64,000 bases of DNA from assembly GCF_000337175.1 (NCBI RefSeq), contig NZ_AOIJ01000063.1, forward strand, positions 1-64,000. Direction: 5' to 3'. The notes beneath the pieces were generated by a model that saw only the letters and a program-made list of their open reading frames with translations, ran no database searches and was not told the DNA's origin. The DNA is from Natrinema gari JCM 14663 (GTDB lineage Archaea > Halobacteriota > Halobacteria > Halobacteriales > Natrialbaceae). The position numbers and the translations under genes were made by a program. Positions 42,758 through 45,724 of this stretch are shown here, piece by piece; the first letter of the stretch is position 1; each line of letters begins with the position of its first letter.

Positions 42758-42833
42758 CCGGAACCCCGCAGCCTTCTATCGCGGCGTCCGACTCGAGGCA
42801 GGCCGGTCGGTTCGGTTCGATACACGGGACCCC

Positions 42834-42854
42834 CACCCCTGATTCAGAGTGAAA
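42834..42854 (-). promoter_or_regulatory. origin-recognition-box-like element (outlying copy)
   Basis: On the minus strand the element reads TTTCACTCTGAA followed by TCAGGGGTG: a dyad plus a G-string, the same pattern as the elements at 45301-45510. It lies downstream of the orc gene, on the far side from the main cluster, about 125 bases past its stop. Confidence 0.65.
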
Positions 42855-42980
42855 TCGTGGGTGCGAGGGGGCCCCACCGTTCGCTGCTTCGGTTCCGGTG
42901 GCGATTCCGGTACCGGGGCCGGCTCGGTTTGGGTCCTGACTCCGCTCTCAGGACCGACTCCGGTTCCGAGACCGGGTTCC

Positions 42981-44267
42981 TCACGAGAAGCTGGTGAGAT
43001 CGATATCACGGTTTCCAGTCGACGGACTGGTCTCGCGGAGCCGATCGTACGTCGGGAGCTCCTCGAGCGAGGCGTCCCGACGAACCGCCTTGACGATGTG
43101 TTTCGGATCGGTAACGAGACGGTGCAGGAGGTAACTTCCCTGTGATCGTCCGCCGCCGGTCTTCTCGGATTCGATGACGCCCAGAAACGCCTGTTCCTTT
43201 AACTGTCGATAGAGACCGTTCTCAGTGATCGGATCGGTGGCGACCAGTTCGCAGATGCCGACGTAGCGCTCGTACACCTCTCGCGTCTTGTACGTCTCCC
43301 GTTCGCCGGTGATGATGCAACTCGCGAGCGCGTACAGGGCGAGTTTCGCGTGGACGGTCGCCCCGCTGGTGAGTTCCTCGATGCGATTGATTTCGGCGAC
43401 CTCCTGGGCCTGCTGGATGTGGTCCTCCGACACCGTCTCGCTACCGATGCGTCGGGCGAGTTCGCCCGCTTCCTTGAGGATCTCGATCGCCTTCCGCGCG
43501 TCGCCGTGTTTCTTGGCCGCGAGAGCGGCACAGAGTTCGATCGTTCCGTCCTCGAGAACGGCGGGCTGAAAGGCGTCCTCGCGATTGCGCATGATCTCGC
43601 GGAGCTGTGAGGCGTCGTACGGGTGAAAGAACAGCTCCCGATGGCCGAAGCTGCTATCGATGCGTTCGTCGAGCGTCTCCCGATACTGGACCTTGTTGCT
43701 GATCCCGATGACGCCGATGTAAGCGTCGGTCTTTCGCGCCTCGCGAGCGCGGGAGAGTTGCATCAGAACGTTGCTGTTGTCGAGTTTGTCGATCTCGTCC
43801 AAGATGACGATGACTGCGTCGAAACAGTCCCCGAGAATACTCCAGATGTGCTGGTAGTACTCCATAGTCCCGACCCCCCGAAGCGGGATGTTCTGTTGAT
43901 ACTCGGTTTGTTCTTTCAGACTCAGCGCCAACTGTCTCGTCGTCCGGGTCTCCGTGTTCGCTTCGGAACAGTCGACGTAGAGAACGCCACAGTCGATGTC
44001 GTTGCCCTGCGCGGCGTCCTGAGCCCGCGTCGCGACGTGCCGGGAGATGAGACTCTTTCCGGTTCCGGTCTTCCCGTAGATCATCACGTTGTTCGGGGGA
44101 TCACCTCGCGTGATCGCACCGACTTCGGCGGCGACGGACTGGATCTCGTCGTCGCGCCCGACGATCCGGTCCTCGTCGGGCACGTGACCGACGTGGAGGA
44201 GTTCCTTTCGATCGAAGATGGGGTCGTGAGACTCGAAGAGCGGGTCCCCACCCGTCTGCTCAGCCAT
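42981..44267 (-). CDS. orc1/cdc6: Orc1/Cdc6 replication initiator
   Basis: A 428-residue AAA+ initiator. Walker A is YGKTGTGKSLI at about residues 64-72, Walker B is VIVILDEIDKL at about 155-160, sensor 1 sequence VIGISNKVQY follows, and the arginine-finger region ERIDSSFGHRELFF is intact. A winged-helix domain fills the last 110 residues (ITENGLYRQLKEQAFLGVIE). It binds origin recognition boxes and loads the MCM helicase. The promoter holds a TATA (minus TTTTATAA, plus 44291-44298) and one dyad of the same type as the nearby boxes. The cluster of boxes around it marks a likely origin. Confidence 0.94.
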   Translation of the reverse strand: MAEQTGGDPLFESHDPIFDRKELLHVGHVPDEDRIVGRDDEIQSVAAEVGAITRGDPPNNVMIYGKTGTGKSLISRHVATRAQDAAQGNDIDCGVLYVDCSEANTETRTTRQLALSLKEQTEYQQNIPLRGVGTMEYYQHIWSILGDCFDAVIVILDEIDKLDNSNVLMQLSRAREARKTDAYIGVIGISNKVQYRETLDERIDSSFGHRELFFHPYDASQLREIMRNREDAFQPAVLEDGTIELCAALAAKKHGDARKAIEILKEAGELARRIGSETVSEDHIQQAQEVAEINRIEELTSGATVHAKLALYALASCIITGERETYKTREVYERYVGICELVATDPITENGLYRQLKEQAFLGVIESEKTGGGRSQGSYLLHRLVTDPKHIVKAVRRDASLEELPTYDRLRETSPSTGNRDIDLTSFS

Positions 44268-44290
44268 AGTTCTGTTCTGGAAGACACTCG

Positions 44291-44325
44291 TTATAAAACT
44301 ATGGAAGGTGGTTCAGACTGATAAA
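44291..44325 (-). promoter_or_regulatory. orc1/cdc6 promoter with TATA box and origin-box dyad
   Basis: Plus-strand TTATAAAA at 44291-44298 gives a minus-strand TATA about 27 bases before the orc start. Immediately upstream, at 44311-44325, the minus strand reads TTTATCAGTCTGAAC, carrying the CAGTCTGAA dyad core of the origin boxes but no G-string. Binding of the Orc protein here could regulate its own gene. Confidence 0.55.
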
Positions 44326-44390
44326 GGCCGAGTAGCGACCGTCCACAGCCGTTCCCGGACGGGTTCACGGTTCTCGAGGACGCTGCCGGA

Positions 44391-44442
44391 TGCAGACTGA
44401 AATCTCGTCCGACGACGGCTCCGCCCCTCATGCAGACTGAAA
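44391..44442 (-). promoter_or_regulatory. two origin-box dyads upstream of orc1/cdc6
   Basis: Both on the minus strand. The one at 44422-44442 reads TTTCAGTCTGCA followed by TGAGGGGCG, so it has the G-string. The other at 44391-44402 has the dyad TTTCAGTCTGCA with no G-string on its side (TCCGGCAGCG follows). Both differ from the downstream copies by GCA in place of GAA. They lie between orc1/cdc6 and the HD gene. Confidence 0.65.
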
Positions 44443-44538
44443 CCGGTCAGTATCAGCGGCCGCCGAGTTTTGTCCTGTCGCCTGAATGGTTCACAGCGTT
44501 TACATAGCGTTTATGTAGTAGGGCGGGTCGGATCACCT

Positions 44539-45204
44539 ATGAAACAGGAATTAGGGGCCCTCGCTCGAGCGCTATCGCTGCCGTACTACGACGATGCGCT
44601 TCCGGCACACGATCAGTTCCATGCCAGTCGGGTTCGTGCCCTTTCCGAACGAGTGGCCGACGAGCACGAGCGAACCGTCGATAGAGGCGTGCTGACTGCA
44701 GCGGCGTGGTTGCACGACATCGGCCGCCCGCTGGAGCGACGGGGAGTGATCGAAAATCACGGCGAATGGGCTGCAGCGGAAGCGAAAGACCTGCTCGAGG
44801 CTGAGGCGGTGGCGACTGATCGGCTCGATGCGATCCAGCACTGTCTCCGAACGCACAGCATTCGGTCTTGTTCGCCGGAGCCGGAGACGCTCGAGGCGAA
44901 GATACTCTTCGACGCGGATAAACTGGAAGCGACCGGTGCGGTCGGTCTCGTCCGGATGGCTTGTATCGTCGGCGAGAGATCGGGCCGTGCAGGCGAGACG
45001 TACGCAGTGATCGATACTCCGGCAGTTGACGGGGAGGTTTCGTCGGAGCTTCCGGACATCACTCTCCTTCGAGAGTGGGCAGCAGAGCGGCTAGAGCAGT
45101 TGTATACGCCACCCGGACGACGCCTCGGAACGTCTCGCTGGCGTTTCATGAAGGAATTCTTCACACAGTTTACGAACGAGATCGCCATCGAACCGGCGGA
45201 ATAA
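44539..45204 (+). CDS. HD-domain hydrolase inside the origin region
   Basis: A 221-residue soluble HD-domain protein with ATG at 44539 (MKQELGALARALSLPYYDDA). Metal ligands are probably H29 or H33 in AHDQFHASRV, the HD pair in AAWLHDIGRPLE (about 62-63), H in IENHGEWAA and the Asp in ILFDADKLEA. The HD fold acts on phosphate esters or nucleotides. Its TATA (TTATGTA, 44511-44517) is about 25 bases upstream. Origin-box-like elements flank it on both sides, so it sits inside the replication origin; whether it acts on nucleotides or is only a passenger is unknown. Confidence 0.85.
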   Translation: MKQELGALARALSLPYYDDALPAHDQFHASRVRALSERVADEHERTVDRGVLTAAAWLHDIGRPLERRGVIENHGEWAAAEAKDLLEAEAVATDRLDAIQHCLRTHSIRSCSPEPETLEAKILFDADKLEATGAVGLVRMACIVGERSGRAGETYAVIDTPAVDGEVSSELPDITLLREWAAERLEQLYTPPGRRLGTSRWRFMKEFFTQFTNEIAIEPAE

Positions 45205-45300
45205 TCCGTAGAACCGACGGTAGCGTAGAATTGACGGAAGAACCCGTCGAACCGATCCCCCTGCATGCCAGTCCACTCCCCCCACCTCCGTTCAGTTGCT

Positions 45301-45321
45301 TTTCACTCTGAACAGGGGGTG
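45301..45321 (+). promoter_or_regulatory. origin-recognition-box-like element
   Basis: TTTCACTCTGAAC followed by AGGGGGTG: the dyad TTCAnnnTGAA plus a G-string. A weaker half-site on the other strand (45281-45299) abuts it. Confidence 0.7.
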
Positions 45322-45362
45322 GGGGTCCCGTCGTCCACTCCGGGACGCCGATAGCTGTCGGG

Positions 45363-45383
45363 CACCCCCGGTTCAGACTGAAA
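45363..45383 (-). promoter_or_regulatory. origin-recognition-box-like element
   Basis: Minus strand TTTCAGTCTGAAC followed by CGGGGGTG. It points away from the next element at 45407, so the pair is divergent. Confidence 0.7.
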
Positions 45384-45406
45384 ACGAGTCCGATTTCGGC
45401 GACTTG

Positions 45407-45427
45407 TTTCAGTCTGAACGAGGGGTG
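45407..45427 (+). promoter_or_regulatory. origin-recognition-box-like element
   Basis: TTTCAGTCTGAAC followed by GAGGGGTG, the best match to the consensus in this window and identical to the copy at 45490-45510 over 21 bases. Confidence 0.75.
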
Positions 45428-45489
45428 GGACGATTTCACGTCCCGGAGCCGATCGAGGTGTCGAACCCACCCCCGGTGTGCCAACTGGG

Positions 45490-45510
45490 TTTCAGTCTGA
45501 ACGAGGGGTG
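45490..45510 (+). promoter_or_regulatory. origin-recognition-box-like element
   Basis: TTTCAGTCTGAAC followed by GAGGGGTG, identical to the 45407 copy. It is the box nearest the AT-rich stretch and points toward it. Confidence 0.75.
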
Positions 45511-45599
45511 TCCGTCACCGTGCTGGCACGTTCCGATCGAGGGCGGTCGTTTCCGTCGTCGTGGCAATCCTATCGTCCGAAGGCCGGCAGCCGCTACGA

Positions 45600-45635
45600 C
45601 AGTCAGTCACTATACTACGTCAGTCAGTCACTATA
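45600..45635 (+). repeat. 15-bp direct repeat in AT-rich candidate unwinding element
   Basis: CAGTCAGTCACTATA occurs perfectly at 45600-45614 and 45621-45635, a 21-base period equal to about two helical turns. The sequence after it (TATAATCAACTCCTG, then CCTTATATTGAAACTTATG) is AT-rich. It lies 90 bases right of the last origin box. Confidence 0.7.
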
Positions 45636-45724
45636 TAATCAACTCCTGAGACCTTATATTGAAACTTATGACCTATGAGGGGCATCCGCCACGTTTATTT
45701 TGGTTTCCTCGGAACCTATTCCCA

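Follow-up and report, generated by a model that had tools for sequence, protein, structure and literature searches.

Does the orc1/cdc6 gene in this part of a Natrinema genome, together with the repeats that surround it, constitute a replication origin, and if so, is it the origin of the chromosome, and is it still likely to fire? The window, i.e. the whole stretch of 64,000 nucleotides that was analysed, lies on contig C63 of a draft genome (G000) of 4.02 Mb in 88 contigs.

The initiator gene and its boxes

The orc gene matches the initiator profile TIGR02928 (3.3e-116) as well as Pfam Cdc6_lid and Cdc6_C, and its product is related by sequence to the solved initiator structures of Sulfolobus and Aeropyrum (E-values of 1e-55 and 5e-52 against PDB 2QBY and 2V1U, respectively). 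As in a haloarchaeal orc1/cdc6-adjacent origin, the product exceeds 300 aa and has AAA+ and winged-helix domains, at least two G-string origin recognition boxes (ORBs; here six) lie beside the gene, and the boxes are particular to the cognate Orc family. In many Natrialbaceae (L028-L049) two different glutamate dehydrogenase genes are found on either side of orc; in the Natrinema loci of this set a small zinc-ribbon gene replaces the downstream one.

Around orc there are five full elements consisting of a dyad and a G-string, one weaker element and two dyads without a G-string (Table 1), much as the sequence-only reading had described. The consensus TTTCAGTCTGAACNAGGGGTG has five full copies and one copy with three mismatches in the window, and as judged by 100 shuffles of the window, no element matches are expected by chance. 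The identity over 21 bases that had been noticed between the boxes at 45407 and 45490 was also borne out, and extends to 22 when the preceding G is counted. In the entire genome (4.0 Mb) there are three copies of the dyad TTCAGTCTGAA, all of them at the orc locus, and every genome-wide match to TTTCASTCTGAAYNNGGGGT with at most two mismatches is located there as well. With regard to individual boxes, the downstream box and distal box 1 lie in a 31-nt inverted match of 90% identity (42824-42854 and 45301-45331), GGGGTGGGGGTCCCGT, which runs beyond the G-string.

Table 1. Features of the orc1/cdc6 locus (positions refer to the window)
Feature	Position	Strand	Remarks
ORB downstream of orc, TTTCACTCTGAATCAGGGGTG	42834-42854	-	same-strand downstream ORB in 38/38 orthologous loci
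orc1/cdc6 initiator gene	42981-44267	-	complete, 428 aa; AAA+, lid and winged-helix domains
TATA box of orc	44291-44297	-	about -30
G-less dyad, ATCAGTCTGAA	44312-44322	-	-55 from start codon; putative autoregulatory Orc site
Second G-less dyad, TTCAGTCTGCA	44391-44401	-	-134
Proximal ORB, TTTCAGTCTGCATGAGGGGCG	44422-44442	-	3 mismatches; orc-side member of divergent pair
HD-domain phosphohydrolase-like gene	44539-45204	+	Pfam HD 7e-12; inside divergent ORB pair
Distal ORB 1, TTTCACTCTGAACAGGGGGTG	45301-45321	+	outer member of divergent pair
Distal ORB 2, TTTCAGTCTGAACCGGGGGTG	45363-45383	-	full element
Distal ORB 3, TTTCAGTCTGAACGAGGGGTG	45407-45427	+	full element
Distal ORB 4	45490-45510	+	full element; equals ORB 3 over 21 nt
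AT-rich stretch before glutamate dehydrogenase gene	45594-45669	.	least stable DNA of the locus; outside ORB pair; fallback candidate for an unwinding element

Orthologs of this Orc are found at 85-99% identity across the Natrialbaceae, and more rarely as relatives of 74-76% identity in Haloferacaceae. A close ortholog is present in about half of the Natrialbaceae (59 of the 125 family genomes). In the 38 orthologous loci that were examined, the number of boxes is never below two, with a median of five and a sum of 179, and throughout these 179 boxes the dyad core and the GGG are invariant and the polarity is constant. The G-string of the proximal box (at about -140 to -340) faces orc, that of the nearest distal box is directed away from orc, and the downstream boxes share a single orientation in the 38 loci. 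The idea that the boxes are chance or unrelated repeats found no point in its favour and was rejected as having next to no probability, on account of the shuffles, the confinement of the motifs to one locus of the genome, and the retention of boxes in every ortholog.

A related group of origins (clade B; L054-L068, L070) likewise has G-string boxes, here of the variant TTTCACTCTGGACGAGGGGTG, beside an Orc that is about 52% identical to that of clade A, to which the window belongs. The two clades each received 100/100 tree support. The dyad reads TCTGGA in clade B vs TCTGAA here, and the recognition helix EHRVYELL vs ENGLYRQL; positions 350-352 and 355 of this helix differ between the clades with no exception in the set. 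Judging by these differences, initiator and box change together, and the pairing resembles the cognate initiator-box pairs described earlier (PMC3528665, PMC3936714). Between them, the two clades would provide a compact code by which origins are told apart and which can be put to the test: an A-to-G change in the dyad accompanies the change from N350-G351-L352 to H-R-V in the recognition helix. As they are conserved in 38/38 orthologs, keep a fixed polarity, vary along with the Orc clade and do not occur outside the locus, the elements are very likely recognition boxes to which their own Orc1/Cdc6 binds, as had been proposed, and an origin function of this Orc family is likely. In N. bangense the orc locus is present twice (L028 and L029), on the chromosome NZ_CP031305 and on the 828-kb plasmid NZ_CP031306; the copies agree in Orc identity, in the order of genes and in the placement of boxes, so that either the locus was duplicated recently or the assembly is at fault.

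The promoter of orc was compared in 34 Natrialbaceae loci aligned on the orc start codon. The dyad ATCAGTCTG is placed at -54 or -55 in all 34, immediately upstream of the TATA box, whose TTTAT columns (-30 to -26) are 91-100% identical, and a second dyad is found at -131 to -135 in 28 of them. As a rule, these promoter dyads have no G-string. In clade B, too, the TATA-like sequence of the gene is directly preceded by a related element. In archaeal initiators, DNA is contacted by the winged helix as well as by the AAA+ domain (PMC4010727), the latter being the one to which the G-string has been assigned (PMC3936714); G-less sites may therefore be bound in another way, which would suit autoregulation. 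Their fixed position suggests that Orc probably regulates its own gene through sites distinct from the replication boxes.

One probable origin module among several

The sequence-only reading is strongly supported as regards an orc gene with recognition boxes of its own; to call the locus the replication origin goes too far, given that other orc genes and the oriC1 initiator are located elsewhere. At least six further orc genes are present in this genome, each with its own repeats. The orc gene in the window is not orthologous to the conserved Orc1 of oriC1, which is another gene on contig C52 of this genome, is set apart in the tree, and in genome G028 lies at the chromosome start. The locus is thus not the universal oriC1. 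The conserved oriC1 Orc1 of Natrialbaceae (G000:C52:2783-4309, L271) contains a long acidic insert in its AAA+ domain, probably disordered. Contig C63 itself harbours a second orc gene (191355-192566, L094), 147 kb away, with seven boxes of another family, ATTCATATCGCACACGGGGT; its close relatives reside on smaller replicons (G065 C2, G028 C3), which suggests an integrated megaplasmid.

Skew was examined on a related complete chromosome (G065), of which half was sampled. All three curves (GC, RY and MK) reach their minimum no more than about 80 kb from the orthologous locus, with skew ranges that do not exceed permutation (P 0.12, 0.08 and 0.73). An argument from replicons on which this orc would be the sole initiator was abandoned: the plasmid of Halobellus ramosii and the megaplasmid of N. 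bangense carry other orc genes, and a 23-kb contig of genome G006 that has this orc alone may be an assembly fragment, its flank being widely shared and probably rRNA. This contig had no match in the plasmid collection.

The interval between the divergent boxes

In the window, the divergent proximal pair encloses an interval of about 860 bp (44443-45300) that consists mostly of the HD-domain gene and is poor in AT, the best 50 bp reaching only 58%. In relatives, 50-bp AT peaks between the divergent boxes are commonly 68-84%, and the 60 bp of lowest stability in the origin region lie between these boxes in 28 of 36 loci. Exceptions are the window, N. pallidum and N. altunense, where they are found outside the box pair, beside the dehydrogenase gene; five other loci, all without the HD gene, also have their least stable DNA elsewhere than between the boxes. 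Thus the AT-rich core that the sequence-only reading had expected between the boxes is a feature of the relatives, and its place is taken here by the HD gene. Nor do elements in mixed orientations flank an AT-rich stretch, as had been supposed: the region in question (about 45600-45700, 65% AT) has every element on one side. In the AT-rich stretch, 45594-45635 is a 21-bp tandem duplication of a unit that N. pallidum and N. altunense have in single copy. A conserved core motif, AAATATAATACTA, was found with up to two mismatches in part of the loci only.

The HD gene occupies this place in four Natrinema genomes only, being intact in the window and G052, interrupted by an in-frame stop in G051 and fragmented in G063. 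Orthologs in other genomes are located elsewhere (197 kb away in G065), so the gene has probably moved into the origin. The boxes differ at 3/84 and 5/84 positions vs 75/290 and 70/290 for the spacers (Fisher p 1e-6 and 9e-5), i.e. they are far better kept, which argues that Orc binding is still selected despite the HD gene.

We consider it probable that the locus is an initiator-plus-cognate-box origin module in which the boxes have been kept and the core has received a gene, so that initiation would be weak, conditional or dormant. On each box, the winged helix would contact the TTCA-NNN-TGAA dyad and the AAA+ domain the G-string, the latter setting the direction. In relatives, a pair of boxes with outward G-strings encloses the AT-rich element, and Orc assembly there would help opening for MCM loading. 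Through the two G-less dyads, at -134 and at -55 just upstream of the TATA box, Orc would probably regulate the expression of its own gene, and the downstream box, to judge from its position, may titrate Orc. Such titration, and one Cdc6 per origin, have been described in H. hispanica (PMC3936714), and Haloferax provides examples of dormant origins (PMC4595724). The unwinding interval is occupied by the HD gene both here and in three close relatives; Orc most likely still binds, and weak or dormant use is favoured. More specifically, and with rather less than even confidence, we propose a split origin: the gene between the divergent ORBs would have replaced the unwinding element while the boxes were kept, leaving either a new unwinding site outside or an Orc-binding control element that does not fire. 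However, the five loci without the HD gene also deviate and the AT-rich stretch lies 100 bp past the distal boxes, so that the unwinding element may have been lost but need not have been.

That stretch is central to a contrasting reading, a minor but serious possibility, in which the origin is fully active, the HD gene is harmless and unwinding has shifted to 45594-45669, past the four distal boxes. In each of the three HD-carrying loci that were tested, the lowest stability is found in this stretch; an intact box is some 85 bp away, the duplication is present in the window, the boxes are under selection, and the skew minima of G065 are near the ortholog. However, the stretch also holds a conserved dehydrogenase-side sequence, AAAATAAACG, and may be no more than the promoter of the dehydrogenase gene, no box is present on its far side, and the skew ranges are not significant. 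It is unlikely that the locus is instead a relic, having lost its replication function in this Natrinema subclade and retaining boxes only for orc regulation or binding. The HD gene in the low-AT core interval, the conserved G-less promoter sites and the dispensability of the module (66 of the 125 family genomes are without a close ortholog) are consistent with such a loss, but the four distal boxes are nearly invariant in spite of a distance of over 1 kb to the start of orc, and Orc is 98-99% identical between carriers. Even the distribution of sites before orc, the HD gene and the dehydrogenase gene could be read differently, with Orc as a non-initiator transcription regulator and the boxes as operators of its neighbours, a role for which Sulfolobus Orc1-2 provides a precedent (PMC9738581). 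We regard this as very unlikely, as the genome contains no further target sites, unlike what is expected for a global regulator, and features such as G-strings and an AT-rich core enclosed by divergent boxes belong to origins. Close Natrinema relatives share this initiator and its boxes but differ in whether the HD gene occupies the core, a natural experiment that bears on which elements, besides boxes, an archaeal origin requires.

Comparison with known origins

In Natrinema sp. J7, oriC11 and oriC12 were predicted by Ori-Finder 2 only, beside one cdc6 gene, as intervals of 520 bp and 223 bp that are 2224 bp apart (PMC5350488, Table 3). Since these lengths and the spacing match 45205-45724, 42758-42980 and the stretch between them, the locus almost certainly corresponds to this predicted pair, i.e. 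to the same two intergenic regions, with a GC content of 60.2% and 68.6% in J7 vs 57.1% and 67.7% here. Neither interval is among the cloned, tested fragments (PMC5350488, Table 3(b)), and for ARS-6 of J7, which is active and has no cdc6 gene, the primer had no match in this genome, so that no link between that origin and this one emerged. In the same paper, pFJ6, whose active fragment is without a cdc6 gene, carries oriC12 according to the text and oriC10 according to the table and discussion.

The presence of ORBs on either side of the initiator gene is shared with oriC2-cdc6E and oriC2D of Haloarcula hispanica (PMC3936714). However, oriC2D comprises eleven downstream ORBs, whereas a single one (two in some relatives), kept in the 38 loci, is found here, and hence no cluster. 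The oriC4-cdc6H of Haloferax mediterranei (PMC4595724) is, like this locus, a secondary chromosomal origin with inverted ORBs; its dormancy was measured, whereas dormancy here is deduced from the HD gene in the core. With haloarchaeal orc/cdc6-adjacent origins in general (PMC3528665), the locus has in common an orc gene, family-specific G-string ORBs and cognate pairing; the AT-rich core that these origins have between their boxes is not intact in this genome. Because the AT-rich element between inverted boxes is absent, the locus is best placed as a variant of this type of origin rather than as a standard member.
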